Translations under genes and position numbers: made by a program
Virus record (IMG/VR): IMGVR_UViG_3300032213_003669
Location: 1-23,184 of that record
DNA length: 23,184 nucleotides
Source: a virus
Strand: one strand, 5' to 3'
Part shown: positions 1,034 through 19,865 of the stretch, one piece after another
Position numbering within the stretch: position 1 is the first letter of the stretch
Layout: each line of letters opens with the position of its first letter
The notes under the pieces: model-generated
Seen by the model: the letters and a program-made list of their open reading frames with translations, nothing else
Told to the model about the DNA's origin: nothing
Databases searched by the model: none

Positions 1034-1106
<73 letters not shown>

Positions 1107-1113
1107 CTGTGAT

Positions 1114-2423: not shown

Positions 2424-2710
2424 TACTTGCCTTCTAAATGATCTGGGATACCATTCCCATCTTTGTCCTCAGCGTTCCTTCCTGTGGAAATCATCAAGCC
2501 GGCAAGAGTTCCAGTTATGAATGTTGCCACCGATGACAATACTCCGAAGAACATTTTGTCGTTTTCAGCTTGCGCACCAATCGGCTGTGTAACGAATACG
2601 AGCGCCCACAAGACTCCGACAGTGGTAATCACTAGAACGAAACCAAGCATGCAACCAATAACGAACTTCAGGCGAGCATCCAGTTCTGCTGGTGTAAGAC
2701 GCTTTTTCAT
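2423..2710 (-). CDS. Two-TM small membrane protein (holin-like candidate)
   Basis: 95 aa. Two membrane segments lie at about 15-40 and 54-76, separated by a loop that should face the cell exterior. The N-terminus is charged (KKRLTPAELDARLKF) and the tail carries DKDGNGIPDHLE, a calcium-loop-like acidic motif. The ATG at 2710 is chosen because it overlaps the lipoprotein stop by 4 bases (ATGA) and has GAGGAG about 10 bases upstream. A longer reading from 2836 would run inside the lipoprotein gene and is unlikely. Small two-TM proteins next to endolysins are often holins or holin regulators. Three candidates occur here, so the assignment to this one is uncertain. Confidence 0.75.
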   Translation of the reverse strand: MKKRLTPAELDARLKFVIGCMLGFVLVITTVGVLWALVFVTQPIGAQAENDKMFFGVLSSVATFITGTLAGLMISTGRNAEDKDGNGIPDHLEGK

Positions 2711-2931
2711 GGTGCGATTGTCTCCTCTACGGGTATTGTCTCTACGCTTGTTTCGCTCGGATCCCATCCAAGCAGCGTTTCTGTGCACGCGCCATCTACC
2801 TTGCATTCTGGTGGCACACATTCTGATTTGCCCCAATTATCAGGGTCTTGGCATGAATATCGGTAATAGCCGTCATAACCGCAAGAAGCAAGAGCAAATA
2901 CAGATACGAGAACAAGACTAAGCCGTTTCAT
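2707..2931 (-). CDS. Small Cys-rich lipoprotein
   Basis: 74 aa. It has a lipoprotein signal: Met-Lys-Arg, a hydrophobic stretch and the lipobox L14-A-S-C17. The mature part has four more cysteines (C27, C38, C43, C49) in YSCQDPDNWGKSECVPPEC..GAC, enough for two disulfides outside the membrane, then an acidic Thr/Glu/Pro tail. The start at 2931 is chosen because it begins the signal peptide and has AAAGGCG upstream; an in-frame start 15 codons earlier would spoil the signal. It overlaps the genes on both sides. In Gram-negative phages a lipoprotein here would suggest an outer-membrane spanin. With an actinobacterial host, a role on the outer face of the cytoplasmic membrane (lysis accessory or superinfection exclusion) is more plausible, but not shown. 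Confidence 0.8.
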   Translation of the reverse strand: MKRLSLVLVSVFALASCGYDGYYRYSCQDPDNWGKSECVPPECKVDGACTETLLGWDPSETSVETIPVEETIAP

Positions 2932-3187
2932 TCTGCTTCGCCTTTGCTGGCTTGCGATCAACCTTGTTGAACACATCGTTTATTTCTGCAGTGGAAAGTT
3001 TTCCGTCTTCCAGAAATGCTCGAGACAGTCCTTCAATCACAACGGCCACACCACCGATACCTGCCATAAAAACAGCTTTAAGAATTGGCACCCCAGCGAT
3101 CGTGCCAGCACCAATAACCCCAAGACCCGAAGCAGCGAAAGTCGCAAGGATCCGCATTATTATGTTCACAACTAAATCCTTTTTCAT
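2918..3187 (-). CDS. Holin-like membrane protein
   Basis: 89 aa. Two hydrophobic segments lie at about 7-30 (NIIMRILATFAASGLGVIGA) and 33-53 (PILKAVFMAGIGGVAVVI), the first glycine- and alanine-rich. A charged C-terminal tail contains EDGKLSTAEINDVFNKVD and ends in Lys-rich residues. Small size, two TM segments, an N-terminal lysine pair and a cytoplasmic charged tail match phage holins of the r1t type in general form. The ATG at 3187 overlaps the upstream gene by 4 bases (ATGA), with GGGGA just before it. It overlaps the lipoprotein gene by 14 bases. This is the best holin candidate of the three membrane proteins, by layout and by proximity to the endolysin. Confidence 0.75.
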   Translation of the reverse strand: MKKDLVVNIIMRILATFAASGLGVIGAGTIAGVPILKAVFMAGIGGVAVVIEGLSRAFLEDGKLSTAEINDVFNKVDRKPAKAKQNETA

Positions 3188-3495
3188 AAGTCCCCTATTG
3201 CGTGATCTCGGATATGTGTGTCCAGTTTTTTTTCTGTTCTGAGTGCGGTTTCCTCTACACGGTCTATAGATATACCTAAAGACTTGGCTGTGCTAGATAA
3301 CTCCGTTTTGCTTCCCTCAACCGCCTCGCTTAGTTTCCCAAGCTCGCGCATAACTTTGCCGTGATCCTCGCCGTTCGTTTCCCACCGGGCTTTGTTCAGC
3401 TTCGCATCTTTGCGGTGCATGATGATTGGTATTGTGGTTGTGATAATCAAAAACCCTCCCGTAATGAGGGCTACGATTATCGGATCCCAGTTCAC
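3184..3495 (-). CDS. Single-TM protein with coiled-coil tail (lysis-region)
   Basis: 103 aa, starting at GTG 3495, 11 bases after the endolysin stop. One membrane segment at about 5-27 (PIIVALITGGFLIITTTIPI) is followed by a basic stretch (MHRKDAKLNKARWE) and then a long helical region with coiled-coil character (about 48-98: regular hydrophobic positions in VMRELGKLSEAVEGSK and TEKKLDTHIRDH). The topology is probably N-out, C-in. Similar single-TM proteins with helical tails occur in actinophage lysis cassettes as second holin-like proteins, but this copy has no diagnostic motif. It is translationally coupled to the holin-like gene by an ATGA overlap. Confidence 0.7.
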   Translation of the reverse strand: MNWDPIIVALITGGFLIITTTIPIIMHRKDAKLNKARWETNGEDHGKVMRELGKLSEAVEGSKTELSSTAKSLGISIDRVEETALRTEKKLDTHIRDHAIGDL

Positions 3496-3506
3496 AGCAA
3501 TATCTG

Positions 3507-4313
3507 CTAGTTGGCTGGCACACCCAAAAGTTCAAGAACTTTAGGGCCTGCAACACCGTCGGCTGGAAGTTTGTTGGCAACCTTGAATGCTTTTACCGCT
3601 TCTTCGGTTACCTTGTTGAACTGACCGTCACAAAGACCCTTATAGAAACCCTTTGCTAGCAGTGCTTCCTGTAGTTTCTTTATTCGTGGACCTAGATCGC
3701 CCAGAACCATTGCGCCACCATCGTCCTTGACGACGCTTGGGGCTGCTGCGGCATTGTTGGATGGGTTTGGTGGTGCTGGGGCATCGCTGCGAACAACAGC
3801 AGGTGGTGGGGTGTCGCCACACACGTAACGCAAATGCCACGGTTCGGATGGAACAACTTCCCATGAGAAACCGAAATCTTTCACATTGGCAATCAACCAG
3901 TTGAGCCTTTTCGGTTCCGATGCTGAATGAACATCAACGGCCAGGCCAAGATTATGCTGCGACTTGCCTGGTGTGGCAAGCATCGCCATACCCTTCTTGA
4001 GATACCAAGTCTTACCTTCAAAGCTTTTCGTTGATCCAGTGCCCGTGTCCTCGAGGCTGTACCTTTGCAAAAATCCAGCCTTCTGGCTTTCGTATGTGCG
4101 ATATGTGTCGCCGGCGGACGTGGGTTTTAGTTCCACGCCGTCTGCTTTGGCTTTCGCCACCATAGAGTTCCATGCGTCGGCAGCGATCCAGAACAACTTG
4201 CCACCACCTGTAGCAGGGCGGAGAAGGTGCTCAGGTAGTTTCCCAGGCTCTACGCCTTTAAGGTCATTTGGTAACTTTACGGGGACGATGTAGTCCCAGG
4301 CGACTTTGCTCAT
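3507..4313 (-). CDS. Endolysin: M15 (VanY-like) peptidase with peptidoglycan-binding domain
   Basis: 268 aa. The N-terminal catalytic domain (about 35-165) is an M15 D,D-/L,D-peptidase. S118-Q-H120-N-L-G-L-A-V-D127 is the SxHxxGxAxD zinc motif. H160 in EPWHLRY is the third zinc ligand and E157 is the likely catalytic base. A Pro/Ala-rich linker (about 168-196) leads to a peptidoglycan_binding_1 domain (about 203-266: LGPRIKKLQEALLAKGFYKG...FNKVTEEAVKAFKVANKLPADGVAGPKVLELL). It cuts peptide cross-links in the cell wall. It has no signal peptide, so release should need a holin, and holin-like genes follow directly. AAGGAG lies 8 bases before the ATG, and a promoter-like motif lies about 35 bases further up. 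This is the first gene of its transcription unit. Confidence 0.95.
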   Translation of the reverse strand: MSKVAWDYIVPVKLPNDLKGVEPGKLPEHLLRPATGGGKLFWIAADAWNSMVAKAKADGVELKPTSAGDTYRTYESQKAGFLQRYSLEDTGTGSTKSFEGKTWYLKKGMAMLATPGKSQHNLGLAVDVHSASEPKRLNWLIANVKDFGFSWEVVPSEPWHLRYVCGDTPPPAVVRSDAPAPPNPSNNAAAAPSVVKDDGGAMVLGDLGPRIKKLQEALLAKGFYKGLCDGQFNKVTEEAVKAFKVANKLPADGVAGPKVLELLGVPAN

Positions 4314-4371: not shown

Positions 4372-7300
4372 CTATTCGCCGTCGGGCTCTTTCATGTGAA
4401 GGTACATTGCGCCTGAGAACGCGATGAGAGTGCTCCAGAACGCGATCTGTTGCGTCAAACCCGACAACGTGAAGTACAACACCGTTGAGCCCGCAAGCGT
4501 GAAGCCTAAGCCCAGAACGCCATAAGAGAACTTTGTCAAGAATTTCTTCCAATCCATAATTTTTTCCCCGTTTTCGTAACGATAGATACTCAGGTTCTTG
4601 ATCCAATCTGGACCATCGCCTGCTATTTCCCCACCTTCCTGCTCATCCTCTTTCCGGACGGCAGTATCCTGTCGCGGTGCTGTAGGTCCTGTTGGGCCTG
4701 TTGGTCCACTAGAACCAGCACCCCCACCAATAATTGCTGCACTTGCAACAGCTGCGGCAACCAAGTTTACAGCAATCACGCTACGCCGAACCCCTACGTT
4801 CACAGATGAACCAATAGCGACATAGGTATCAAATACGCCCGCAAACACGTTTATTTCCTCTTCAAATGATTCTTTTACATCTGTTGTCGCGCCCGCAAGT
4901 GCCTCGGCAATTTGAGCACCTGCTTCTTCCGAGACCTCGGCAACAACGATCGCATCAAACACTTCTGTTGCTTGGTCACCGTCAATGCTTTCAAGCACCT
5001 TGGCGCTCGTTGCCAATTCTGTCGCTTGTTCACCAGAGACACCCCCATCCTGGTTGACGATCAAATCAACCACTTGTGATACCTGATCATTTGTAATTGA
5101 ATCCGACTCGAGGACATCCACTATGACCCCAACCGAATCAGCATCTAATTCGTTACCCAAGACTGCGGTAAAGGTTTCAATCAAAACCTCGGTGCTTACT
5201 TCTTCGTCAAAGACTGCGCCAAGAGCAGCGCCCAAATTCTCTGCGGTCAGACCGTCTTTCAATACATCAACGATAAGGTCAATGGTTTCTGCATCGGAAA
5301 GGTCATCGTCAAACACGCTGTCAAATATTGCTTCTGTTTCTGCTTGACTGAGATTTGTTTCAAGCAAGTCGCCAAGTACGGTCATAGTGTCTGCAACGGA
5401 AATGTCCTCGTCAAATACTGCGTCCATAACTTTGTCTAGGTCGCCAGAACTAAGCGGACCATCAAAGATTGATTCCAAAGCCGACACCATATTCTCAGCA
5501 GAAGTATCTTCCGAGAACGCTGAATCCAAAACTGCTGTCAACTGTGCGCTGGTGAGGTCTGCGTCTAGCATTGTTGTTAGTGCTTCGGTGAATACATCTG
5601 CCGAAACATCTTCGGTGAACACGGCTTCTAGGACATTGTCAAACTGTGTGTCGGTAAGTTCTGCTCCGAGGAGTGTGTCAAGAACAGCGCCAACCTCGTC
5701 AGCCTCAATATCGGTAGTGAACGTATTTTCAAGAATATTGTCCAATATGGCTGTTGTGATTGGCTCGTTGTCTTCTATGTCTGTGACGGTATAATCATCC
5801 GGTGGAATTATTACTACTACCGTTTCAGTTTCTGTTGGGTCTACTTCAATTGGTAGTAAAGTTGTTTCTGTTGATTCCCACTCTTCTGGGATGGTTACTG
5901 TTGGCAGTTCGGTTTCAGGTAATGTTTCTGTTGGAAGCGTCACCGTTGTGGATTCTGTTTCAGGCTCTGGGTATTGCGGCAGTGGCACTGTTGTATCGTC
6001 AGGGGGAGTCACGACGACAGGAACGACGGTCGTACTGGTCGTAGTAGTCGTAGAAGTAGTCGTAGTTACTGGAGTTGGGTCAAGAACAGTTGCATCAATA
6101 GTTACTTCAGGACCATAGGTGCAACTACCAGTTCCAACCCCAGCACACCCAGCCGTCATCGCTTTGATGCCAAAACGAACTGGTCCGTATCCAGTCGTGA
6201 CAGGATTACTGCCAGAGAACATTCCTGTGCTTAATGAGTAGTTGGTTCCTTGATTAGTCCAAACTCCCCAACCACCTGATTGTGCTCCACCGATTACGGT
6301 TAGGTCGTAGAAACTAACTGAATATCCGTAGATGACGCAATTACTTGCCGCTGATGCATCCCAGTCAAGGTCAACACTTCCGTCTGCGTTTGCAACAGCC
6401 GTCAAGTTTGTGACTGGATTCAGGTAAGCCGCAGTGATTGTGTTATTGGACTCCACATATCCAGAGCCCGAGAAATTGTTTGTGTTTTGCGCAGTAGTGC
6501 CAAAAGTGTTTCCACTGGCTGTGGAGAACGAGTTGGAACTTACTCCGTTGTACACGGAGGAGCCGTTATTCCAATTGTTTGCAAACTGAATAGCAGTGGT
6601 GTTGCCATTGAATGTGTTACCCGAAACCGTTTGGTTGCCAGCGCCTGGTGTCCAAGTGGTCGGAATCCATGAAGAGAAATACACGCCCGTACCGTTTGAA
6701 GTAAATACAGAGTTGGTTACTTGCTGACGGTTTAGACCATTCAAAGAAGCACCAGTTGAGTTGTTGGAAAATTCTGTGTTGTTTATCTTGAAAAATCTTT
6801 GCCCAGAGATGCCGTAAGTGTTATTAGAAAAAACCGAATCATAAACATATGTGCGGTTCGTGTAATCGGAATCCGTTTGACTTAAAGCCGATGGCGTTGA
6901 ACCATAGTCTCCAGCGATACCAACATATAGATAGTCAAATGTTGTGTTCGTTAGGGTTGAGACAGAGCCATTGTTATTGTTGAATACGGCAGAGCCCCCA
7001 CTCATTCCGGTGAAGCGAATGTTGGTGGCAGACAAAGTGCCTGAACCATTGAATATCAGACCGCCGTTGGTTGCCTGTCCTTGCTTAAGGGTCATATTTG
7101 AAATCGTCAGCGACTTGGTACTTGCAATATTGAACGGGCGATAGAGGTTGTTTCCGTCAATTATTGTCTGTGTTCTTCCGTTTCCTGTGACTGTCAGGTT
7201 TTGTGTTATTTGAGGAAGCGCACTAGTCAGAGTAATTGTGCCATTGACATTAAATGTAATTGAGTCGTAGATACCGCCAGCAGTAGCGTTTGCCTGCGTG

Positions 7301-8397
7301 ATTGCCCAGCGCAAAGTTCCGCTTGAAGTCGTGTCATCAAGGCTCGTAACAACTAGCGATGTTGAGGCAGGAATCGTAGTAGTTGTGGTGGTAGTAGATG
7401 TAGTGGTAGTAGAAGTAGTGGTAGTAGTGGTTTGAGCAACAGTGGTTGTGGTTGTAGTAGTAGGGGGAACCGTTGGGGCAGTTTCACTATTTGACGCAAC
7501 TCCGCCAAATGATGCGCAATTGTTTGAAATGCAACGGGTTGTTGAACCTGCCTCGCTGTCAATCATCAGCGCTGGAGGTAAACCTGAATCATCAAGGTTA
7601 AACGAAGCAAAACCAAGTTTATAAGTACCGCTTATAGAGACTTGATATGTTGAAGTTTGCCAACCCGTAGAGCCATAAGAATTCGTTGAGTAGTCGCCAG
7701 TGCCAGGATTGGTGAATCCAAGAAGTGCGTATTGCTTGACATAGTTGTTTACCGTTACTACTGGAGTGCCAGTAACAGTTACAGGAATGAGTGATGTGAT
7801 AGAGCCATCGTTAAAAGGAACATAGTCAGTTCCGACATAGTTCCACGCCATTGTGTAGGTCATGCCTGCCGTCAGTTCTACCTCACGAGTAATCCATGCT
7901 GCGTCTGTCGGTGTACCTTGACCGTTGCCTGACGCTTGCGCCTGCGATGTAAGCATGTTTTTAATTTCTGTTACCGAGCCAGCCGAAAGGCTCAAAGCAC
8001 TTGCCGCTTGGTCAAAAGTCTGTTCACCTTTGGGTTGAAGCAGAACAGCATTTGTTCCGTTATTAGGGGAGAATGTCCAACTGCCAGAAGCAACTGCTGA
8101 GGCGTAATACGGGCTAGACGGACTTCCAACAGCACCCCTAGAACCGTGAGTGAAAGTCCGAGAACCAGTAAATATGGTTACGCCACTACCGTTACCAGTG
8201 ATGGTGTTGCCCAATGTCCCAGACTGGCTTCCCTTGCTCCAGCCCGTAAATGTTCCATCCTCAAACCCAGTGTTGGGGATGGTGGCTGCTTGAGCTGGTG
8301 TGACAGGGCCAACCAAAACCCAAACCCAAGCCGAGACAACAGCCAGAGCAACAAGTTTTCTGCCAAAAGATCCAAGTTTTGCAATAGAGAAAGCCAT
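4372..8397 (-). CDS. Giant multidomain surface protein, exported and membrane-anchored
   Basis: 1,341 aa. Signal peptide 1-37 (basic start, hydrophobic core, cleavage after PVTPAQA). Residues about 38-305 look like a beta-rich binding domain (GFEDGTFTGW start, paired with CISNNC late). A poly-Thr linker spans about 309-341. Residues about 342-655 are rich in N, G, S and T with N-N-x-[IF] turns, typical of a parallel beta-helix. About 659-770 is FnIII-like (PVTNLTAVANADGSVDLDWD). A second poly-Thr linker (about 774-790) and a P/E/T-rich stretch (to about 866) lead to 17-residue helical repeats (881-1101, degenerate to about 1165). The C-terminus has three membrane segments (about 1204-1226, 1290-1311, 1318-1335) and three Gly-Pro-Thr triplets near 1230. 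The ATG at 8397 fits the signal peptide; the in-frame GTG at 8439 would overlap the promoter motif. This is bacterial cell-surface architecture, not a virion protein. Role inferred: altering the infected cell's surface. Confidence 0.85.
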   Translation of the reverse strand: MAFSIAKLGSFGRKLVALAVVSAWVWVLVGPVTPAQAATIPNTGFEDGTFTGWSKGSQSGTLGNTITGNGSGVTIFTGSRTFTHGSRGAVGSPSSPYYASAVASGSWTFSPNNGTNAVLLQPKGEQTFDQAASALSLSAGSVTEIKNMLTSQAQASGNGQGTPTDAAWITREVELTAGMTYTMAWNYVGTDYVPFNDGSITSLIPVTVTGTPVVTVNNYVKQYALLGFTNPGTGDYSTNSYGSTGWQTSTYQVSISGTYKLGFASFNLDDSGLPPALMIDSEAGSTTRCISNNCASFGGVASNSETAPTVPPTTTTTTTVAQTTTTTTSTTTTSTTTTTTTIPASTSLVVTSLDDTTSSGTLRWAITQANATAGGIYDSITFNVNGTITLTSALPQITQNLTVTGNGRTQTIIDGNNLYRPFNIASTKSLTISNMTLKQGQATNGGLIFNGSGTLSATNIRFTGMSGGSAVFNNNNGSVSTLTNTTFDYLYVGIAGDYGSTPSALSQTDSDYTNRTYVYDSVFSNNTYGISGQRFFKINNTEFSNNSTGASLNGLNRQQVTNSVFTSNGTGVYFSSWIPTTWTPGAGNQTVSGNTFNGNTTAIQFANNWNNGSSVYNGVSSNSFSTASGNTFGTTAQNTNNFSGSGYVESNNTITAAYLNPVTNLTAVANADGSVDLDWDASAASNCVIYGYSVSFYDLTVIGGAQSGGWGVWTNQGTNYSLSTGMFSGSNPVTTGYGPVRFGIKAMTAGCAGVGTGSCTYGPEVTIDATVLDPTPVTTTTSTTTTTSTTVVPVVVTPPDDTTVPLPQYPEPETESTTVTLPTETLPETELPTVTIPEEWESTETTLLPIEVDPTETETVVVIIPPDDYTVTDIEDNEPITTAILDNILENTFTTDIEADEVGAVLDTLLGAELTDTQFDNVLEAVFTEDVSADVFTEALTTMLDADLTSAQLTAVLDSAFSEDTSAENMVSALESIFDGPLSSGDLDKVMDAVFDEDISVADTMTVLGDLLETNLSQAETEAIFDSVFDDDLSDAETIDLIVDVLKDGLTAENLGAALGAVFDEEVSTEVLIETFTAVLGNELDADSVGVIVDVLESDSITNDQVSQVVDLIVNQDGGVSGEQATELATSAKVLESIDGDQATEVFDAIVVAEVSEEAGAQIAEALAGATTDVKESFEEEINVFAGVFDTYVAIGSSVNVGVRRSVIAVNLVAAAVASAAIIGGGAGSSGPTGPTGPTAPRQDTAVRKEDEQEGGEIAGDGPDWIKNLSIYRYENGEKIMDWKKFLTKFSYGVLGLGFTLAGSTVLYFTLSGLTQQIAFWSTLIAFSGAMYLHMKEPDGE
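5095..5757 (-). repeat. Thirteen tandem 51-base units encoding 17-residue helical repeats
   Basis: Within the surface-protein gene, codons for residues 881-1101 fall into thirteen consecutive units of exactly 17 residues with no indels. Examples are TDTQFDNVLEAVFTEDV (5605-5655) and SAENMVSALESIFDGPL (5452-5502). The common pattern is helix-forming S/T-x-x-x-hydrophobic..., V/L-hydrophobic pairs and an acidic end. Even-numbered units tend to carry Phe plus an acidic triplet (FTED, FSED, FDED, FDDD, FDEE) and odd ones Leu, giving a 34-residue superperiod. More degenerate units continue to about 4900. DNA identity between units is low, so the repeats are old or under strong protein-level selection. 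Confidence 0.85.
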
Positions 8398-8437: not shown

Positions 8438-8451
8438 ACAATTTTACACTA
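8438..8451 (-). promoter_or_regulatory. Candidate late promoter of the surface-protein gene
   Basis: The minus strand reads TAGTGTAAAATTGT about 41 bases before the ATG at 8397. It shares TAGTGTAWAATT with the motif before the endolysin and GTAAAATTG with the motif before the 203-aa fibre gene. No clear -35 is visible. Its position argues for translation starting at 8397 rather than at the GTG at 8439, which lies inside the motif. Confidence 0.5.
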
Positions 8452-12265: not shown

Positions 12266-12318
12266 GAGTCCTTTCCGTTATAAATGTAATGCTAATCTAC
12301 AGCACGGAGGGAACAAGA
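12266..12318. promoter_or_regulatory. Divergent promoter region between membrane-protein and halogenase genes
   Basis: 53 bases holding the 5' ends of both units. On the plus strand TATAAATG at 12279-12286, close to the T4-type late consensus TATAAATA, lies 33 bases before the halogenase ATG, and GGAGG lies about 8 bases before it. On the minus strand TTATAA overlaps the same bases, with AAAGGA before the ATG at 12265. The two promoters therefore probably overlap; no start site is proven. Confidence 0.45.
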
Positions 12319-13914
12319 ATGTCCGAAGAGATAAACAAGATTGTTGTTGTCGGCGGTGGATCGGCGGGCTGGATGACTGCAGCATACCTGATCAAGGCGT
12401 TTCCAGAAAAAGAAATTGTAACCATTGAAAGCCCTGATGTATCTATCATCGGAGTTGGCGAAAGCACGCTAGGCGGAATCAACGACTTCACGCGGTTTCT
12501 CGGGATAGACGAAAAAGACTTCCTTGCTTACACCGACGGCTCGTACAAAATGAGCATCAAATTTACCGATTTCTATATGAAGGATGCCGGCGCTTTCCAC
12601 TATCCGTTCGGACACCCACACATCAAAGACATCCCAGGTGGGCTTGCGGCATGGTTCCACAAGAAAGCTTTATATCCTGAAACACCAATAACGGACTTCG
12701 TAAACTGCTACTTCCCGTCCGCGGCACTTTATGAACAAAACAAATTCTCACTAAACCGATACGGAATATTTGACTCGTACGACCCTGACTACGATGTTGC
12801 GTACCACTTTGACGCAACAAAATTTGGTGCTTGGTTACGTGACAGATACAGCATTCCCCGCGGAGTGAAACTAATACGCGGAACAGTGCGCGATGTAATA
12901 CCTGGGGAGAACGGTGTAGGGGCATTAGTCCTAAATGACGGTGAACGGATCACGGCTGATCTGTTTATAGACTGCACAGGCTTCCGATCAATCCTTTTGT
13001 CCGAATTCCTCAAAGAGCCGTTCGTTTCATACAAGCACATACTGCCAAATAACCGTGCGTGGGCAACTCGCATCCCATACATAAACAAGACCCGTGAACT
13101 CGAGCCTTACACAAACTCAATAGCGATCGGACACGGGTGGGTTTGGAACATTCCGTCATGGAACCGACTTGGCACAGGGTATGTCTACAGCGATGAATAC
13201 ATTGAGCCAGAAGACGCCAAAGAAGAATTCAAGCAATACCTGATGTCCGACAAGATCCTCTACCCACGCACCCGTGAACAAGTAGAAAACTTGGAATACA
13301 AAGACATCCCAATTCGTGTAGGGATTCATGAACGAACATGGGTGAAGAACGTTGTTGCAATCGGTCTGTCCGCAGGTTTCATAGAACCGCTTGAGAGCAA
13401 CGGCCTGTATACAGTCCATGAGTTCTTGCGCATATTGGGAAAAACATTACTGCGACCAAAAGTAAACAAACTTGACAAAGATCTTTACTGCTCACAGACA
13501 AGACACATGTACGACGGTTTTGCCCACTTCGTGTCACAACATTATTCGTTGAGCCTTCGCGACGACACCAACTACTGGAAAGCGAACTCCGAGCGAACGT
13601 ACGACGAGAACATGATCAACCTCATACCAACGCAATCTGGCGAGTATTACGACATGAGGATCCGTAAATACAGGACGAACGAATCCGACAACATCGCTGG
13701 GATCACCTACATCTCGGTAGGAATGAACTACTTCTATATGGATCGGATCACATCCGAGCTAAGACAGCTCAGTGACCGGTACGACCACAAAATCGCATTC
13801 CAAGATGTATTCAACGAATTAGAAAACAGAAAGAAACGATGGTGGAAAGCGGCCGAAGACAAGCCAACCCTCCACAAGTACCTCTCAAATAACATATATG
13901 AAGGAGAAATGTAA
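12319..13914 (+). CDS. Flavin-dependent (tryptophan-type) halogenase
   Basis: 531 aa, normal length for the family. The FAD-binding motif GGGSAGW is at 12-18. K77 in GSYKMSIKF sits where PrnA has its catalytic Lys79. W274-V-W-N-I-P279 is the WxWxIP signature that separates halogenases from monooxygenases. FIEPLES at 354-360 carries the conserved Glu/Ser pair of the active site. These enzymes use FADH2, O2 and halide to make hypohalous acid, which a Lys channels onto an aromatic substrate. A viral member, VirX1 of a cyanophage, is known to iodinate many substrates. No flavin reductase is in view, so host FADH2 is likely used. The ATG at 12319 has GGAGG upstream; an in-frame start 30 bases earlier lacks one. 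It is the first gene of an inverted three-gene cassette. The substrate is unknown. Confidence 0.93.
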   Translation: MSEEINKIVVVGGGSAGWMTAAYLIKAFPEKEIVTIESPDVSIIGVGESTLGGINDFTRFLGIDEKDFLAYTDGSYKMSIKFTDFYMKDAGAFHYPFGHPHIKDIPGGLAAWFHKKALYPETPITDFVNCYFPSAALYEQNKFSLNRYGIFDSYDPDYDVAYHFDATKFGAWLRDRYSIPRGVKLIRGTVRDVIPGENGVGALVLNDGERITADLFIDCTGFRSILLSEFLKEPFVSYKHILPNNRAWATRIPYINKTRELEPYTNSIAIGHGWVWNIPSWNRLGTGYVYSDEYIEPEDAKEEFKQYLMSDKILYPRTREQVENLEYKDIPIRVGIHERTWVKNVVAIGLSAGFIEPLESNGLYTVHEFLRILGKTLLRPKVNKLDKDLYCSQTRHMYDGFAHFVSQHYSLSLRDDTNYWKANSERTYDENMINLIPTQSGEYYDMRIRKYRTNESDNIAGITYISVGMNYFYMDRITSELRQLSDRYDHKIAFQDVFNELENRKKRWWKAAEDKPTLHKYLSNNIYEGEM

Positions 13915-14519
13915 TGCTTTACGCCGGCAAGCTAGATCCAGCAGAAATTGTTGCAGGTTGTGTCGCCATATATGAAGACGCTTTCCCTAGCTGGCAACAG
14001 GCAATAGCAGTAGCCGAGGAACAGGCGCAGGATCCAGAGTCATCTTGTTCATGGTCGCGTGCCGAAACGATTGGCTCAGGCATTTATCAGGATCGCCGAA
14101 CGAACATGATTATGGGAATAACCGATGCTGCTGAGCAGGGCAATGCGGTTATGCGACAAATACATAACCAAACCTACCTATCTATCGTTGCGGCCACGAA
14201 CGACTACGGGAAACGATTCAAAATATCTGAAACTTTCCACCACGAACCGTACGGAATGCTCAAATATCGTGGCGGACAAATGTATGGATCACATCACGAT
14301 GCTGGGATCAATGTCCCAAGATCAGTCTCTGCGGTTGTCTACCTGAACGAGGATTACGAAGGTGGCGAAATAGAGTTCGTAAACTTCGGCATCAAAATCA
14401 AGCCCCTACCAGGAATGCTTATTCTGTTCCCATCAAACTTTGCCTACGAACATGTCGCACACCCCGTGACGAAGGGAACCAAATATGCGATTGTGACTTG
14501 GTTGCGCGAGGCAAACTAA
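13914..14519 (+). CDS. 2OG/Fe(II) oxygenase, prolyl 4-hydroxylase-like
   Basis: 201 aa. The iron triad is H127-x-D129 (GSHHDAG) and H180 (FAYEHVAHPV). K190, ten residues after H180, would bind 2-oxoglutarate. Collagen prolyl 4-hydroxylase has the same layout (His, Asp, His, then Lys ten residues later), whereas many relatives use Arg. Flanking features are family-typical: YRGGQMYGSHHD, SAVVYLNEDYEGGEIEF and the PLPGMLILFPS turn. It should hydroxylate a peptide or small molecule using O2 and 2-oxoglutarate. Its ATG overlaps the halogenase stop by one base (TAATG), and its own stop overlaps the next start the same way, so the three are coupled. The substrate is unknown; Pro/Gly-rich phage adhesins nearby are candidates. 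Confidence 0.9.
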   Translation: MLYAGKLDPAEIVAGCVAIYEDAFPSWQQAIAVAEEQAQDPESSCSWSRAETIGSGIYQDRRTNMIMGITDAAEQGNAVMRQIHNQTYLSIVAATNDYGKRFKISETFHHEPYGMLKYRGGQMYGSHHDAGINVPRSVSAVVYLNEDYEGGEIEFVNFGIKIKPLPGMLILFPSNFAYEHVAHPVTKGTKYAIVTWLREAN

Positions 14520-15139
14520 TGAACAGCTTCCAAGAGTACGGTTATCTAACAGTTCCAGAATTGCTCAACGATGAAACAGTTGCGCTTTTCACCCAATACG
14601 CCCTGTTCATGGAGAGCAAAGAATTCACTCCCGAAACAGGTCAGTCCGCGCAAGTGCCTGGGGCGCATAGTAGTTATGGTGACCCGTTCGCAGAAGCGTT
14701 GTTGCTTTACGCCCATGAAAGCATGGAACAGCTCACAGGATTACGACTACACCCCACATACTCTTATTACCGTGTTTACCGAAACGGAAGCACACTAAAA
14801 CCACATCGGGATCGCGAATCCTGCGAAATATCAGCGACCCTATGTTTTGCGTACGAATACAACAAATCGGGATATGAATGGCCGATAATTGTTGATGGCG
14901 TTGAAGTCGTTATGGAACCCGGTGATGCTGTGATCTACAAAGGTTGCGACATAGAGCACTCACGGAACACGCTTGAGGCTGGCGAAAATGCTTTCCATGT
15001 ACAAGCGTTTCTGCACTATGTTGATGCAGACGGACCATACGCAGAGAACAAGTATGATCGGCGCAAACACTTAGCCACACCACCTGCTATTGCTGAAATG
15101 CCACCTAAAAGGAAATACATTTTCAGAACGAACGACTAA
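14519..15139 (+). CDS. 2OG/Fe(II) oxygenase, second of cassette
   Basis: 206 aa from ATG 14519, inside the stop of the previous gene (TAATG). The HxD motif is H96-R-D98 in LKPHRDRESCEISATLCF. The distal histidine is H147 in YKGCDIEHSRN, and the closing strand is FHVQAFLHYVDADGPYAENK. Similar proteins with PHRDR..CEIS..L and EHWR-like ends occur in marine phages, usually without known substrates. The N-terminal FQEYGYLTVPELLNDETVAL is the usual opening helix. A residue for the 2-oxoglutarate carboxylate is not obvious after H147, so co-substrate binding may differ from the P4H-like neighbour. It is convergent with the minus-strand gene at 15136; the two stops overlap. Confidence 0.85.
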   Translation: MNSFQEYGYLTVPELLNDETVALFTQYALFMESKEFTPETGQSAQVPGAHSSYGDPFAEALLLYAHESMEQLTGLRLHPTYSYYRVYRNGSTLKPHRDRESCEISATLCFAYEYNKSGYEWPIIVDGVEVVMEPGDAVIYKGCDIEHSRNTLEAGENAFHVQAFLHYVDADGPYAENKYDRRKHLATPPAIAEMPPKRKYIFRTND

Positions 15140-15507
15140 GGCGTCCAAATAATTGGATCAACCTTAAGCTCTTTGCCTGGATACCACATTCCTAATTCGT
15201 CAAGTCTTTTCTGTACAACAGGCAATATGGGCTTTCCATCACGTCTTTCCTGATAGAACGTTTCTATGTTGTGGTTGTAGCGAATCATATAAAATTCTGC
15301 GTACGGACACCAAGCAGCATACACGCCATGTCCACCGCCTTGTTCTACGATTACTTCCCAAATATCAACATCTTCTATGACCATTTCGCGGTCATATGTC
15401 CAAGGCGGGCTCGGTGGAAGAGTTAGAAACGGTTTATCGTAAACATTGGCATCATAAACCATGCCAAAGTCTTGGAAAATGTTTTGGTTAGTTTTGAATA
15501 AAGGCAT
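15136..15507 (-). CDS. Conserved virion-region protein, 123 aa
   Basis: 123 aa, soluble. The core reads W-T-Y-D-R-E-M-V-I-E-D-V-D-I-W-E-V-I-x-E-Q-G-G-G, then GVYAAWCPYAEFYMI, then a C-terminal Pro/Trp-rich part (ELGMWYPGKELK). I recall proteins with VD(I/L)WEVI and GVYAAW.PYAEF from T4-like cyanophages, function unknown. It follows the glycine-rich paralogues with a 1-base stop-start overlap (TAATG at 15505-15509), so it belongs to the tail operon and is that operon's last gene. Its stop overlaps that of the 2OG oxygenase on the other strand, with no room for a conventional terminator. Confidence 0.7.
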   Translation of the reverse strand: MPLFKTNQNIFQDFGMVYDANVYDKPFLTLPPSPPWTYDREMVIEDVDIWEVIVEQGGGHGVYAAWCPYAEFYMIRYNHNIETFYQERRDGKPILPVVQKRLDELGMWYPGKELKVDPIIWTP

Positions 15508-16589
15508 TACCTAGCACGATAGCGCACGATAACTATTCCAGGCCCACCCTTGCCAGAGACTTGCTGTGGTGTGTTGTGATGGGTTGAACCACCACCACCA
15601 CCACCCGTGTTTAGTTGTCCGGATTGTCCTGACTGATGCAGTGTGTCGCTTGCGAGCGGCGCGTTGTTATGGTTGTGATAAGAAGTTCCTTCACCACCTC
15701 CACCCAGTCCACCCGCTGAACGGTTGATCGCATGACCAGGATGTCCACCACCACCGCCTCCTCCAGCGTAATGGGTTGGATACCCCGAAATATCGTTCGC
15801 TAAACCATTACCACCTTTTTGGGTTGTTGGAAACGCTGCATACGGTGATGCTGGTGGGTAAAGATCTGTTCTGTTGCCAGTGCCGTTTGGAACATAGTTG
15901 TTTCTAGTCGCATGGTTTGCATTGTCATAGTCAAACCCTGCTTGCCCTGCTCCGCCCCCACCACCACCAGCGTGTCCATGTGGTGCGTGATGACCTTTTC
16001 CGCCAGGGTGACCCTGACCAGGTGTTCCAGATCCTGCAGGAATCTGAAATCCGTTTCCGTTATTGTACCCACCATGAGCTGGTCCGCCACCGCCAGAACC
16101 GCCTGTGGAAGTTGGTGTACTTGGGGCGGTAGAAGAATAAGAAATTCCTTTTCCCCCACCAATCGCTGTTAGCGAACCAAAAAAAGAATCACTGCCCTTG
16201 CTTTGAGTGTTGTCATTGTGTGCAAACTCGTTATTCCCGCCGCCACCTACTTGTACAGATGTTGTTCCAGCGGCAACCGTCAAGTTCGGATAGTAAAGAT
16301 AGCCACCGGCTCCTCCTCCACCACCCATACCTGCACCTCCGCCACCACCGGCAACTATCAAAACATCCATTGCCCCACCTTGTGTGACAACAAAGTTTGT
16401 TACATAGTTGTAGCCCTGCCCACCATTTTCGCGGCTCTTGTAAATACTGTAAGTATTAGCTTGGTCAACTTTGAACATATGTATGCGATACGGTCCAACA
16501 TGTGATGTTTCACCACCCTCAGCAAAAGGGGTGGCGCCACCCATAGCATCTACGGGATCACTTGCGTATATACGTTGTTGATATCTCAT
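15507..16589 (-). CDS. Glycine-rich tail adhesin paralogue A
   Basis: 360 aa. The N-terminal third (about 1-75) is a beta domain (YRIHMFKVDQANTYSIYKSR, FVVTQGGAMDVLIVAGG). The rest is glycine-rich, with runs of 4-7 Gly, GYLYYPNLTV, a GQGHPGGKGHH segment, DISGYPTHYAGGGGGGG, and an ending GGPGIVIVRY. This is the Gly-rich phage adhesin type; T-even gp38 adhesins fold such runs into a polyglycine-II sandwich with variable surface loops for host binding. No signal peptide, as expected for a virion part. It is coupled by ATGA to paralogue B, its closest relative, and shares weaker similarity with C and D. Confidence 0.83.
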   Translation of the reverse strand: MRYQQRIYASDPVDAMGGATPFAEGGETSHVGPYRIHMFKVDQANTYSIYKSRENGGQGYNYVTNFVVTQGGAMDVLIVAGGGGGAGMGGGGGAGGYLYYPNLTVAAGTTSVQVGGGGNNEFAHNDNTQSKGSDSFFGSLTAIGGGKGISYSSTAPSTPTSTGGSGGGGPAHGGYNNGNGFQIPAGSGTPGQGHPGGKGHHAPHGHAGGGGGGAGQAGFDYDNANHATRNNYVPNGTGNRTDLYPPASPYAAFPTTQKGGNGLANDISGYPTHYAGGGGGGGHPGHAINRSAGGLGGGGEGTSYHNHNNAPLASDTLHQSGQSGQLNTGGGGGGSTHHNTPQQVSGKGGPGIVIVRYRAR

Positions 16590-17659
16590 CGTGACCTGTA
16601 CCTTACTATGACGACCCCTGGACCGCCACGACCTGAGTCGGTGTTCTGATGTGAGGAGTGTGTTCCACCACCACCGCCACCGCCAGTGTTTCTTTGCCCA
16701 GGTTGTCCTGCAAAATATAATGTATCTTCTGTGTCGCCACGACCGTTAGCTGTGGCGTGACCTGTTCCTTCACCACCACCACCTAAACCACCAGCAGTAC
16801 GATTATTGCTGTGACCAGGGTGCGATCCACCGCCACCGCCACCCGCATAATGTGTCAAATATCCTGAAATGTCGTTCGTTAAACCGTTTCCACCTTTTTG
16901 GTTCAAAGGAAAACTTGGATACAACGATGCTGGTGGATACAGATTTATTCCATGACCAGGACCATTAGGTGTGTACGCGTTCAAAGGTATGGCAGGGTTG
17001 TCAGGCCAGCCTGCTTGTGCTGCACCGCCACCTCCACCACCACCATGCCGGCTTGAGCCAGGATGGAAACCTGTTCCACCAGGGTGGCCTTGACCAGGTG
17101 TTCCAGCTGCTGCTGGTGTAGCACCCACGATCCCTGGTGTGTGACCGTTTCCGCCACCACCAGAGCCACCAATATTCTTTGCTGCTGTAGAAGGGTTTCC
17201 CCCGTATGAAACTCCTGCACCACCACCGTTTGCTACTAAATCTGCAAAGAAAGAGTTCCCGCCGCGTGACTGCTGGTTTTCGTTGTGCCCAAATTCGGAT
17301 CCACCACCACCACCAACTTGAACAACTTTTGTTCCTGGCGTGACTGTGTAATTCGGGTAATACAAATACCCTCCTGCACCGCCGCCACCGCCCATGCAGG
17401 CTCCACCGCCGCCACCACCAACAATCAGAATGTCCATCAAACCGCCCTCATGGACAACAAAAGAAGACAAAAAGTTGTATACGGTGGCATCGCCATTTCT
17501 TGACTGCCACATGCTTGCCGTGTTCGCATCATCTTGTGTGAATGTGTGAATGCGATATTGTCCGTTAGTTGTGACTTGTCCGCCTTCGGCTATCGGTTTC
17601 GTGTTTGGTGATGCAGAGTCAACTGTTGCACCTGGTGTCATTCGTTGCATGTATCTCAT
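16586..17659 (-). CDS. Glycine-rich tail adhesin paralogue B
   Basis: 357 aa. Same plan as paralogue A. The opening MRYMQRM parallels MRYQQRI, followed by YRIHTFTQDDAN and MDILIVGGGGGG. GYLYYPNYTV, GTPGQGHPGGTGFHPG, NLYPPASLYPSFPLNQKGGNG and DISGYLTHYAGGGGGG align with A almost block for block. The end GGPGVVIVRYRSR differs by two residues from that of A. Differences cluster in the loops between Gly runs (for example after the HPGG segment and before NTGGGGGGG), as expected if the loops face the receptor. CAGG lies about 6 bases before the next start in the string. Overlaps of 4 bases exist on both sides. Confidence 0.83.
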   Translation of the reverse strand: MRYMQRMTPGATVDSASPNTKPIAEGGQVTTNGQYRIHTFTQDDANTASMWQSRNGDATVYNFLSSFVVHEGGLMDILIVGGGGGGACMGGGGGAGGYLYYPNYTVTPGTKVVQVGGGGGSEFGHNENQQSRGGNSFFADLVANGGGAGVSYGGNPSTAAKNIGGSGGGGNGHTPGIVGATPAAAGTPGQGHPGGTGFHPGSSRHGGGGGGGAAQAGWPDNPAIPLNAYTPNGPGHGINLYPPASLYPSFPLNQKGGNGLTNDISGYLTHYAGGGGGGSHPGHSNNRTAGGLGGGGEGTGHATANGRGDTEDTLYFAGQPGQRNTGGGGGGGTHSSHQNTDSGRGGPGVVIVRYRSR

Positions 17660-18783
17660 ACGGATGTTCCGTTCGTAAACTTGCGTACTGCTGCTGGAAC
17701 GGGCCGTTGGTCGTTTTTGATTCTGATCACAACAATTCCTGGACCGCCACGACCTTGTGCTTCAGGGTTGTTTCCACCGCCACCCCCGGCGCCCGTGTTT
17801 GCTCGAGCACCAGTCGGTAAAGCCCTGTTCGTATGATCTGGAGAATGGTTTCCGCCTGTTGGTCCGCCACCGCGCGAACCGCCACCAGCATGCACCCAAC
17901 CTGCCCAGTGCATACCTGCACCACCACCACCGGCGTAATGCAAGTTGGTTCCAGTGATGTCGCTTGCTAAACCATCTCCGCCTGGTCCACCAGAATGCTG
18001 ACGGTTACCTGGCCAGCCAGGGTTGGTGTTTCCACCAGCAGATCCTGCACCTCCACCTCCACCACCTTTGTGATGGTTTGGGTGATGTCCGTGTCCACCT
18101 GGGTGACCTTGCCCCATAACACCTGATCCACCTGGTGGGTTGCCATTTGCTGCTCCACCACCACCAGACCCGCCACGTCCACCGTTGTGTCCTGGTCCGT
18201 ACTGACCTGGGAGAGGGTTTGCAGGGTTCAAACTTAACGGCGTGTGATTACCTAAATAAAGATTGTTTCCAACTGTGGCACCGTCAACTAGATACGAGCC
18301 AAGAACCGAACCATTCTGCTGGAAGTCAGCAGGTACACCACTATATGATCCACCAGTACCGCCACCTATTGCTTCTATAACTGTAGTGCCGTCAATAACA
18401 AGCTTTGATGGTGACCCTGCACCACCGATTGGGCCGTGGCTGTTGTTCAGCGGACCATGCCCGCCAGCACCAACCTGAATAAAGTTATCTGGAGCAACAG
18501 GATTGCTCTCTGTTCCACCTTGTATCAAAACATTTTGACGATAAATATAACCACCGGCGCCACCACCGCCGCCTAAACCAACTCCACCACCACCACCCGC
18601 AACGAACAGAATATCCGCATTGCCACGACCACGAATTGTTACAGGAGACTTGCCAGTTGTTGTAAAAGTATAAACCGTGTATCCGTTAGCGTTAACAGCA
18701 GATTGCGCACCAGTGATAGTAAGGGGTGTTGTGGTGCTGTTTGTCCAACTAGAAACATACGTGGAAGGATCAATAAATCTCAT
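17656..18783 (-). CDS. Glycine-rich tail adhesin paralogue C
   Basis: 375 aa, the longest of the four. The N-terminus differs from A/B: MRFIDPSTYVSSWTNSTTTP, then YTVYTFTTTGKSPVTIRGRG and ADILFVAGGGGGVGLGG. The Gly-rich part has GYIYRQNVLIQGGTESNP, VGAGGHGPLNNSHGPIGG, MGQGHPGGHGHHPNHHKGG, NTNPGWPGNRQ, DITGTNLHYAGGGGAG and GGPGIVVIRI. A 25-residue extension (QRPVPAAVRKFTNGTSV at its end) is shared only with D. Some positions hold His clusters that could bind metal. It belongs to the same operon, coupled by ATGA on both sides. Confidence 0.83.
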   Translation of the reverse strand: MRFIDPSTYVSSWTNSTTTPLTITGAQSAVNANGYTVYTFTTTGKSPVTIRGRGNADILFVAGGGGGVGLGGGGGAGGYIYRQNVLIQGGTESNPVAPDNFIQVGAGGHGPLNNSHGPIGGAGSPSKLVIDGTTVIEAIGGGTGGSYSGVPADFQQNGSVLGSYLVDGATVGNNLYLGNHTPLSLNPANPLPGQYGPGHNGGRGGSGGGGAANGNPPGGSGVMGQGHPGGHGHHPNHHKGGGGGGAGSAGGNTNPGWPGNRQHSGGPGGDGLASDITGTNLHYAGGGGAGMHWAGWVHAGGGSRGGGPTGGNHSPDHTNRALPTGARANTGAGGGGGNNPEAQGRGGPGIVVIRIKNDQRPVPAAVRKFTNGTSV

Positions 18784-19865
18784 ACACTGCTTCCAGTCGG
18801 CGAGAACTTCCTCAAACCTGCTGGAAGAGGAAGCTGATTGTTGTTTACGCGAATAACTACAATACCTGGACCGCCTGCACCCTGTGCTTGTGGATTGTTT
18901 CCTGCGCCTGCACCTGCACCTGTGTTTGGTAGACAGCCAGTTGCTGGAGCCAAGTTGCCATGATCCGGCGAGTGCGCCCCACCAGTCGTTCCACCACCGC
19001 GACTACCAGCACCATTGTGAACTGCTGGGTGATGGTTTGCGCCACCACCGCCACCAGCGTAATGTATTTGTGTTCCAGTTATGTCGGACATTAAACCATC
19101 TCCACCAGATCCAGCAGTGTGTTGCATATGTGATGGCCAGCCTGGGTTGGTGTTTCCGCCAGCCTCACCCGCACCTCCACCGCCACCACCCTTGTAGTGG
19201 TTTGGGTGATGACCATATCCTCCTGGGTGTCCTTGACCCAAAACCGCCGAACCACCAGGAGTATTCGTAGGGTTTCCAGAACCGCCACCGCCAGAACCTC
19301 CACGACCACCAGCATGTCCTGGTCCGTACTGTGACGGGAAAGGGCTAGCAGGGCTAAGACTTAACGGTGTGTGCAAACCTGTGTATAGACCGTTTGCTTG
19401 TATGCGATCCGCAGGATATCCATTCCAGTTGCCACCGCCGCCACCACCAATAGCTTCAACAACGGTTACACCGTCAATGACAAGTTTAGAAGGTGTACCA
19501 GACTCGCCGAACGGACCGTGGGAGTTATTTGTTGGGCCGATACCACCAGCGCCAACAGTTACATAGTTTTGTGGCGCGGCAGGGTTGGTGTCTGTTCCGC
19601 CTTGCAGCAAAACATTCTGTCGGAAAATATATCCGCCGGCGCCACCACCACCGCCTAAACCAGCAGCACCTCCACCACCCGCAACAAAAAGAATATCTGC
19701 AGCGCCACGACCACGAATAGTTACAGGAGTATTACCTGTAGCTGTAAATGTGTAGATTGTGTAACCACCAGAAACGGTAGTTGTTGCTGCGCCAGAAACA
19801 GTAAGAGCTGTGCTAGTTGGCTGTGTCCATGACTGCGCGTATGTAGACGGGTCAATAAACCTCAT
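18780..19865 (-). CDS. Glycine-rich tail adhesin paralogue D
   Basis: 361 aa. The close partner of C: identical opening MRFIDPSTY, the same RGRGAADILFVAGGGG strand, GYIFRQNVLLQGGTDTNP, LGQGHPGGYGHHPNHYKGG, NTNPGWPSHMQ, DITGTQIHYAGGGGGA, SRGGGTTGGAHSPDHGN, and a terminal extension like that of C (QLPLPAGLRKFSPTGSSV). The main changes from C are a shorter stretch after the VEAIGGG strand and altered loops near the C-terminus. It is the first of the adhesin string, 10 bases after the stop of the 124-aa gene, with TAGGT about 9 bases before its ATG. With A-C it forms a four-member tandem array made of two pairs. Confidence 0.83.
   Translation of the reverse strand: MRFIDPSTYAQSWTQPTSTALTVSGAATTTVSGGYTIYTFTATGNTPVTIRGRGAADILFVAGGGGAAGLGGGGGAGGYIFRQNVLLQGGTDTNPAAPQNYVTVGAGGIGPTNNSHGPFGESGTPSKLVIDGVTVVEAIGGGGGGNWNGYPADRIQANGLYTGLHTPLSLSPASPFPSQYGPGHAGGRGGSGGGGSGNPTNTPGGSAVLGQGHPGGYGHHPNHYKGGGGGGAGEAGGNTNPGWPSHMQHTAGSGGDGLMSDITGTQIHYAGGGGGANHHPAVHNGAGSRGGGTTGGAHSPDHGNLAPATGCLPNTGAGAGAGNNPQAQGAGGPGIVVIRVNNNQLPLPAGLRKFSPTGSSV

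Follow-up and report, generated by a model that had tools for sequence, protein, structure and literature searches.

In a 23,184-nucleotide stretch of viral DNA (positions 1 to 23,184 of IMG/VR record IMGVR_UViG_3300032213_003669; hereafter the window), an uninterrupted ORF on the minus strand (4372-8397; 1,341 aa and a stop codon) encodes a surface protein that, judged from its sequence, is very probably exported by the Sec pathway and displayed by the phage outside the infected cell. We read it as a putative surface-displayed glycan-binding protein whose most likely task is to mask receptors on the dying host, with a rough probability of 0.4. If this reading is true, phages of a group that matches at least 512 IMG/VR stretches reshape the surface of the host as it dies, by means of heads that are exchangeable and in part of the lectin type. 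Receptor specificity would then have a second, cell-borne arena beyond the tail fibre, with consequences for superinfection and for the escape of progeny from the debris of lysed cells.

Architecture and predicted export of the surface protein

From the N-terminus, the window protein consists of an export signal, a head, a Thr linker, a beta-helix, an FnIII-like region, a second Thr linker, an alpha-solenoid stalk, and C-terminal membrane segments (Table 1). An initial annotation had described this architecture from the sequence, and it holds for the uninterrupted ORF, the export signal, the Thr linkers, the beta-helix (AF2 and profile), and the helical repeats (AF2). Searches of the whole protein against Pfam, PHROGs, and NCBIfam gave nothing over any cut-off. 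The pLDDT of the AF2 model was mostly 70-95 as far as residue ~605, and the beta-helix matched 8wm1 in structure (VIA-align Z of 25.2) as well as by profile (E = 3.5e-9). Pfam Beta_helix matched 12 of the 29 rows of alignment A2 and fn3 matched four, the window row matching neither. The beta-helix fold is common to polysaccharide lyases, tailspikes, and the adhesin PfbA, and a common fold is no proof of function. The FnIII-like region, which had also been proposed, stands insofar as relatives carry fn3 (the four rows of A2, and relative L030, where the match was over the cut-off), but on the window protein itself no Pfam family scored over its cut-off. Weak matches of porphobilinogen deaminase, Ac75, and GatB to the helical repeats were dismissed as chance, and the structural matches of the alpha-solenoid to many helical-repeat proteins (best Z of 13.7) possibly reflect just a common arrangement. 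Alternative in-frame starts upstream (GTG at 8439; ATGs between 8439 and 8397) merely extend the N-terminus. A promoter scan of the region found 6 candidates against 7.7 expected, that is, not above chance.

Table 1. Features of the surface protein gene and the adjoining lysis genes in the window. Residue numbers refer to the 1,341-aa protein.
Feature	Position	Strand	Basis and remarks
Gene of the surface protein (display predicted)	4372..8397	-	1,341 aa; ORF and family comparison
Signal peptide	8287..8397	-	residues 1-37 (MAFSIAKLGSFGRKLVALAVVSAWVWVLVGPVTPAQA, then A), predicted cleavage after TPAQA; by eye
Exchangeable head, type N1	7483..8286	-	residues ~38-305; AF2 beta-rich, low to middling confidence
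Thr-rich linker 1	7375..7467	-	residues ~311-341; tandem repeat at 7376-7428
Right-handed beta-helix	6493..7365	-	residues ~345-635; AF2 confident to ~605
FnIII-like domain	6088..6435	-	residues ~655-770; fn3 in 4/29 A2 rows, best E 6.5e-4
Thr-rich linker 2	6028..6078	-	residues ~774-790
Alpha-solenoid stalk, two-helix repeats	4855..5754	-	residues ~882-1181; AF2 pLDDT 76-96 in blocks of ten
Conserved membrane-proximal motif, FEEEINVF ... Y ... GS ... VGxRR	4783..4869	-	residues ~1177-1205; alignment A1, 26 rows
TM1	4726..4797	-	residues ~1201-1224; clear hydrophobic segment 1203-1225, mean hydropathy 1.57
Fused two-TM hairpin	4375..4557	-	residues ~1281-1341; separate next gene in 9/45 relatives
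Endolysin, VanY and PG_binding_1	3507..4313	-	next gene downstream of the surface gene
Small TM and coiled-coil-like protein (cluster 4)	3184..3495	-	by eye
Holin-like protein	2918..3187	-	phrog_443 holin, E 2.8e-6; best match phrog_26427, 1.1e-17, labelled nuclease

The initial annotation had considered the protein most likely to be on the infected cell and not in the virion, and had named a lack of homologues with an export signal as evidence against this. A signal-peptide-like N-terminus was present in all 45 non-redundant complete relatives and in 5 of 90 control clusters, according to a single rule of our own that was written after the family had been seen and did not have a trained predictor as its basis. 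Because the 45 representatives came mainly from the best 80 loci of each of two scans, they are skewed to close relatives of the query. Among 41 complete genes upstream of hairpins (see below), six failed the rule, five of which look signal-peptide-like by eye; for the sixth (L260), the chosen frame is probably wrong.

Four contigs (L053, L054, L055, and L061), representing two closely related phages (99.9-100% within pairs and 95.7-96.9% across them), have a second gene, whose product combines an N1-related head (60% identity) with an LPXTG C-terminus. The LPXTG signal matched PF00746 in 4/4, at 27.1-27.2 bits against a cut-off of 20. The window protein itself has no C-terminal LPXTG with hydrophobic stretch and basic tail, and an LPVTG end that was recognized in L230 only by eye gave no match to PF00746 (E up to 5) or to TIGR01167 (E up to 0.01). 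The family-wide export signal, the C-terminal TM, and the LPXTG second protein of the relatives agree with display on the cell. Surface display, as predicted from these features, is well supported, and the membrane topology less so.

Family spread and exchange of heads

The C-terminal domain is encoded by at least 512 IMG/VR stretches. The phage group is common and apparently undescribed, and its hosts are probably aquatic actinobacteria. A WhiB gene is present in the window and in 14 of 20 large related records, the remaining six, possibly fragments, giving no match. No tyrosine integrase was found in these 20 records, which speaks against a purely lysogenic role. Phrog_2 is presumably the terminase large subunit. 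DSL-LC01, the one relative with a name, has a recombinase gene and was predicted to be temperate by its authors (PMC10611076; the table row was assigned to it by length).

The C-terminal tail had been suggested to derive from a captured actinobacterial surface protein. When species genomes were scanned, 128 stretches matched and two of them were kept, both of which we judged to be contigs of phages that had been binned into MAGs. This result is a weak negative for capture, because the scan used one peptide pattern and chromosomal homologues with other motifs are missed. In the plasmid collection, the C-terminal 251 residues were unmatched; bacterial relatives were weak, were confined to the head and beta-helix parts, and came from three plasmid records. 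The statement that no phage gene with this architecture had been described agrees with the open-access full-text literature, where no description of such a protein was found among the matches listed, but needs qualification, since databases do contain relatives, listed as hypothetical proteins or under automatic names.

Thirteen head types were found across the family, and 42 relatives of the N1 head. Both members with an N6 head matched the L-type lectin family PF18483 over the cut-off (E = 1e-40 and 1.1e-39), and the N9 head matched PA14, also over the cut-off (E = 7.5e-12). No lectin family in Pfam matched the N1 head of the window. We consider it likely that the head binds a glycan.

Sequence comparisons indicate that heads are exchanged between phages and that DNA homology ends within the signal peptide. 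L005 and L062 share 99.4% identity across a 338-residue span ending just past the RR motif, and their heads are unrelated (this comparison of C-terminal regions and heads covered 46 of 66 proteins, the other 20 being missed by the motif search). DNA homology between the two ends at nucleotide 8080, 1 base before the predicted end of the signal peptide, and resumes at 93.5%. Over 99 non-independent pairs, the closest AxA-like site was a median 3.3 aa away from where homology ended, under a rule that permits several sites per protein. On a C-terminal tree, rapidly built and including some long branches, we counted 29 head changes, the minimum being 12. Shuffled labels gave 40.0 changes, and 0 of 200 shuffles were as low; heads are therefore partly inherited too. 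A search of the 20 large records for silent N1 head cassettes gave a single match in 5 and none in 15.

The membrane hairpin and its lysis neighbourhood

Of the three C-terminal membrane segments proposed for the window protein, one (TM1) is clear, but TM2 and TM3, the counterparts of a separate small gene in 9/45 relatives, are weakly hydrophobic (mean hydropathy of 1.0 and 0.89) and of low confidence in AF2. A two-helix hairpin of ~57 aa was found in 45/45 non-redundant relatives, fused to the surface protein in 36 and encoded by the next gene in 9; the search profile was made from tails of the family itself, and TM segments were assigned by hydropathy and by eye. The separate hairpin genes encode 55-65 aa (120 aa in one type), and a hairpin alignment of 16 rows contains invariant L, T, and G residues and TLSG. 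PHROG 29041 was matched by 6/6 scanned separate hairpins (E = 1.5e-13 to 4.8e-8) and by the fused DSL-LC01 protein (E = 1.8e-5). The fused hairpin of the window had no match to PHROG 29041, yet it is 27% identical to the first row of the hairpin alignment. The hairpin profile had no match among solved structures at E up to 1. In several lineages, an SD-like sequence and an internal ATG are retained at the fusion joint.

In 49 of the 51 distinct loci with a hairpin, the surface gene lies directly upstream of it; as the upstream gene we took the longest ORF on the same strand that had 150 aa or more and ended within 400 nt of the hairpin. The 51 loci were obtained from 79 by removing seven without an upstream ORF called (L215, L220, L221, L244, L267, L282, and L284) and 21 near-copies. 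The topology is not clean. Arg-Arg is conserved on the side of TM1 that is supposed to face outward. The stretch from TM1 to the hairpin was net acidic in 34/34 fused members measured; in the nine separate-gene members, the tail past TM1 was net basic in six, acidic in two, and absent in one.

The position beside lysis genes that had been noticed in the window proved to be a conserved slot: among 56 distinct surface genes, an endolysin is the next gene downstream in 29 and is among the first six downstream genes in 40, the remaining 16 having none within that distance. In 38 of the 56, a holin-type gene, or the ORF antisense to it, is found within six genes. Counted from the hairpin, an endolysin profile occurs within 3 kb downstream in 9 of 48 loci with room, and in others farther away or upstream. 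The idea that the hairpin is a relative of the neighbouring holin-type gene was rejected (hhalign Prob of 0.2 on a percent scale, with five rows on the holin side). By eye, tail-type genes are found near the surface gene in several loci. The gene clusters were built by single linkage, and different families may be mixed in them; large tail proteins, for instance, are also in cluster 1.

Possible roles on the infected cell

Receptor masking is the main role that we tentatively favour, at somewhat less than even odds. The surface gene would be expressed late and the signal peptide cleaved. TM1 and the hairpin would keep the C-terminus in the membrane, and the stalk would take the head through the wall. 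There, the head would bind host surface glycans, which would stop phage from adsorbing to the cell or to pieces of wall and membrane that remain after lysis. In the absence of adsorption to the cell or its fragments, progeny would be protected and superinfecting phage excluded.

The anatomy is the same as that expected of an adhesin, whose head would attach the infected cell, or what is left of it, to particles or to other cells nearby, leading to more meetings of progeny with hosts or to altered grazing or sinking. The lectin and PA14 heads, the fold shared with the adhesin PfbA, and the diversity of heads are consistent with such a function, but planktonic hosts are dilute, and expression that is late, as we suppose, would leave little time for cell-cell contact; we regard it as possible but rather improbable. 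Outside signals are known to control lysis in the T4 RI/T pair, and a signal such as a glycan or contact with phage could likewise act through the ectodomain and a holin-type hairpin to time lysis or hold it back. The hairpin of all 45 relatives, the surface gene directly upstream of it in 49/51 loci, the frequent proximity of a holin-type gene and endolysin, and the SD-like sequence with internal ATG at the fusion joint argue for this. Moreover, lysis cassettes are known from actinophages in which a two-TMD N-in/C-in holin-like protein takes part in lysis (PMC13056207). However, a separate holin-type gene or antisense ORF is nearby in 38/56, to which the hairpin is not similar, and a timer needs no giant exchangeable head, so that lysis control appears unlikely as the main role. 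More doubtful still is an "ectodomain-gated" two-component device, in which virulent actinophages would fuse an exchangeable outward lectin to a holin-like hairpin, and the cell would read neighbour glycans or competing phage, block re-adsorption, and adjust lysis. Were it true, the phage would furnish the surface of its host with an organ for sensing or display, whose sensor head is exchanged like a tail fibre tip.

Two further explanations bear on whether the protein acts on the cell at all. It might be a fibre that is exported or parked in the membrane and becomes part of the particle when the cell lyses or later, as the tailspike-similar beta-helix and the nearby tail-type genes in several loci would allow. 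Phage tails are assembled in the cytoplasm, however, and the signal-peptide-like N-terminus and hairpin in 45/45 relatives, together with the LPXTG versions, make a virion component very improbable. A moron, here a surface gene recently taken from a host and of no use to the phage, would account for modules that weakly resemble bacterial surface proteins. We give this hardly any credence in view of the at least 512 viral stretches, the conserved slot and partner, and the C-terminal domain lacking a chromosomal homologue in the genome scan (as a weak negative from one peptide pattern).

Receptor masking is proposed here as it is for the superinfection-exclusion surface proteins Llp (T5), Cor (phi80), and Ltp (TP-J34), which are small (lipo)proteins. 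The window protein resembles them in being phage-encoded and, as predicted, exported, a likeness of kind rather than of established homology; in contrast to them, it is large and modular, with lectin-type heads in some members of the family and a hairpin partner. It shares a signal peptide, a modular beta-helix/FnIII ectodomain, a linker, and a C-terminal anchor with Gram-positive LPXTG surface proteins and adhesins such as PfbA of Streptococcus pneumoniae, but is phage-encoded and ends in TM1 and a two-TM hairpin instead of LPXTG, and the genes of its family are often near lysis genes. We know of no earlier report that pairs PHROG 29041, to which no function is assigned, with a surface protein; if our reading is true, the small proteins of this family, which matches separate hairpins and not that of the window, gain a defined, testable partner. 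LysF1a, a two-TMD holin-like protein of actinophage lysis cassettes (PMC13056207), has the two-TM layout and lysis neighbourhood in common with the hairpin, which differs in partnering or fusing with a surface protein and in its dissimilarity to the neighbouring holin-type gene. Gut phages encode modular Ig-like adhesins, likewise adhesive domains of phage origin; those were displayed on an engineered phage capsid, and the main text of that paper uses neither "signal peptide" nor "transmembrane" (PMC13370021). The conserved stalk and anchor with exchangeable heads may also lend itself to use as a scaffold for display in actinobacteria. Tail fibres and tailspikes of phages likewise carry recombination-exchanged heads on a conserved scaffold and share the beta-helix fold, whereas the order is mirrored here, with a variable N-terminus and a conserved C-terminal anchor, and an export signal and membrane segments are added.

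Predicted export and membrane anchoring

The claimed open reading frame was intact and encodes 1,341 aa. An initial search of viral contigs found 114 relatives, of which 78 loci were kept, and a profile scan with the C-terminal domain gave at least 512; 166 loci yielded 103 closed ORFs, of which 66 were unique and 45 non-redundant. The C-terminal profile had exactly one match in 15 of 16 large records, and in the remaining record, without a match, the gene is cut at the contig end. Among named phages, the sole match was WJZ48438.1, encoded by DSL-LC01, an Actinomycetia phage assembled from a metagenome, whose host prediction comes from PMC10611076.

The signal peptide proposed in the initial annotation turned out to be a family trait. 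All 45 relatives passed a rule requiring a basic n-region, a hydrophobic core and an AxA-like site, compared with 5 of 90 control clusters (at least 200 aa, drawn from 79 loci), the rule having been set after the family had been seen. The controls included another export-looking phage protein, of 434 aa (L021, a related viral contig).

Past the stalk, the order is a conserved motif, TM1 and the two-TM hairpin, which is fused in 36/45 relatives and encoded by the next gene in 9/45. A scan seeded with a separate hairpin gave 441 relatives, 80 of them kept; the 79 new hairpin loci comprised 51 distinct ones with an upstream ORF, and this ORF bears the C-terminal domain in 49. The exceptions are L230, where the contig edge cuts the upstream ORF, and L260, where the ORF choice was probably wrong. 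The L230 ORF directly precedes the hairpin gene, has fn3 above cut-off and ends by eye in LPVTG-hydrophobic-KKG, an end for which profile searches gave no support. In L002, an in-frame stop splits the surface protein from the hairpin, with an ATG two codons further, and several fused lineages retain an SD-like sequence and in-frame ATG at the joint (such fission or fusion joints were seen in L002, L007, L019, L023 and L039). The hairpin may thus also be translated alone.

Once the signal peptide is cleaved, TM1 should run from outside to inside. The tail past TM1 in separate-gene members is net basic in 6/9, as expected for an inside location, acidic in 2/9 and absent in 1/9. The stretch from TM1 to the hairpin is net acidic in 34/34 fused members measured, and the Arg pair lies at the supposed outer side of TM1. 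Because of this unclean topology, we lowered the probability that the protein is displayed on the infected cell surface from about 0.9 to about 0.85.

Heads, sorting signals and predicted structure

Four loci (L053, L054, L055, L061) all carry a second phage gene, whose product has a head related to N1 and an LPXTG signal that exceeds the cut-off. Sorting signals make sense at the cell surface only, so this second protein argues for display; it is the strongest single argument, but it concerns relatives. Since the four loci are near-copies of two related phages, the case counts as one or two events.

The 260-residue stretches past the signal peptide of 66 proteins fell into 13 head groups without mutual BLAST similarity. 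Both N6 members match the L-type lectin PF18483 (E 1e-40 and 1.1e-39), and the N9 head matches PA14 (E 7.5e-12). The window's N1 head had no match to a named lectin family; a weak relative is a Novosphingobium autotransporter-associated protein (32%, E 1e-8).

L005 and L062 have unrelated heads and 99.4% identity over a 338-residue stretch ending past the RR motif; their DNA is 77% identical through the signal peptide end and, after the unrelated head, 93.5% identical. Among 99 non-independent pairs with unlike heads, the median distance between the end of homology and the closest AxA-like site was 3.3 aa, and in 48 pairs it was at most 3 aa. The C-terminal tree needed 29 head changes (minimum 12), compared with 40.0 for shuffled labels, which needed as few in 0/200. 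Heads have thus often moved, yet have also been inherited. Of 20 large records, 5 had a single N1 copy and 15 had none; thus there was no sign of stored N1 copies.

In the AF2 model, the helical repeats described earlier appeared as an alpha-solenoid at residues ~882-1181 (pLDDT 76-96 over ten-residue blocks) and the beta-helix was recovered from ~345, whereas the head and the supposed FnIII region were poorly resolved (mean pLDDT 64) and the membrane part had low confidence. At Z 21-25, the predicted beta-helix is similar to structures of polysaccharide lyases, epimerases, tailspikes and the adhesin PfbA, a likeness of fold that does not reveal function.

Roles considered for the probably displayed protein

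Phage proteins at host surfaces are known, among them Llp, Cor, Ltp, Lom and PblA/B; for this modular, partner-bound family, we found no description in the open-access literature searched, and it is apparently undescribed. The head probably binds glycan. Glycan-binding heads displayed on the surface of the dying host would fill phage receptors there and on debris, and we tentatively favour such receptor masking. Adhesion is a less likely alternative role of the displayed protein. Lysis control through the hairpin is somewhat less likely still. The hairpin is alike in size and layout to the two-TM holin-like proteins described for actinophage lysis cassettes in PMC13056207, but has no similarity to the neighbouring holin-type gene.

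Genomic setting and origin

The lysis genes said to adjoin the surface gene were found: an endolysin and a holin-like gene lie downstream. For 56 distinct family genes with complete 3' ends (hairpin skipped), the endolysin is the next gene in 29, its cluster lies within six genes in 40 and not in 16, and a holin-type gene, or an antisense ORF of one, lies within six genes in 38. In the hairpin-based set, loci with room had an endolysin profile match within 3 kb downstream in 9/48 and a holin-type match in 19/48; elsewhere in that set the endolysin lies further downstream or upstream.

The window, a virus record in IMG/VR of 23,184 bases, has a WhiB gene above the Pfam cut-off. Among 20 large related records, which may be fragments, 11 carry phrog_2, which we take to be the terminase large subunit, 14 carry WhiB and none a tyrosine integrase. 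DSL-LC01, which has a recombinase gene and is predicted to be temperate by its authors (PMC10611076), speaks against a strictly lytic life.

The initial suggestion that the C-terminus was captured from a host was not supported. A genome scan with one peptide pattern, a weak negative, matched 128 stretches, and the 2 loci kept sit in MAGs labelled Gammaproteobacteria and Flavobacteriales, on contigs that look phage-like by eye (VanY-type endolysin, holin-type neighbours; a WhiB-like ORF in one, L081).

Features of the window and of related loci
Feature	Position (strand)	Remarks
Surface protein	4372-8397 (-)	
Endolysin	downstream of surface gene, same strand	VanY + PG_binding_1
Small TM/coiled-coil-like protein	downstream, same strand	by eye
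Holin-like protein	downstream, same strand	phrog_443 E 2.8e-6; best match phrog_26427, label nuclease
tRNA-Met gene	1034-1107 (+)	adjoins whiB
Lipoprotein-like ORF, small	2707-2931 (-)	lysis neighbourhood; lipobox LVSVFALASC by eye
Tryptophan halogenase-like ORF	12289-13914 (+)	by eye
2-Oxoglutarate-oxygenase-like ORFs	13914-15139	after halogenase-like ORF
Four Gly-rich ORFs	15507-19865 (-)	tandem, 357-375 aa, paralogue-like
LPXTG sortase-substrate protein	e.g. L061:12194-13507	head related to window protein's
Export-looking control protein	L021:8472-9776	
ORF preceding hairpin gene	L230:2-946	
Joint of surface protein and hairpin	L002:11907-11915	

The lipoprotein-like ORF, which had no match in an NCBIfam search and has relatives (cluster 34) in 9 loci, could be a further surface or exclusion protein. 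A tryptophan 7-halogenase is reported for DSL-LC01 in PMC10611076. The Gly-rich ORFs are probably tail or fibre proteins.
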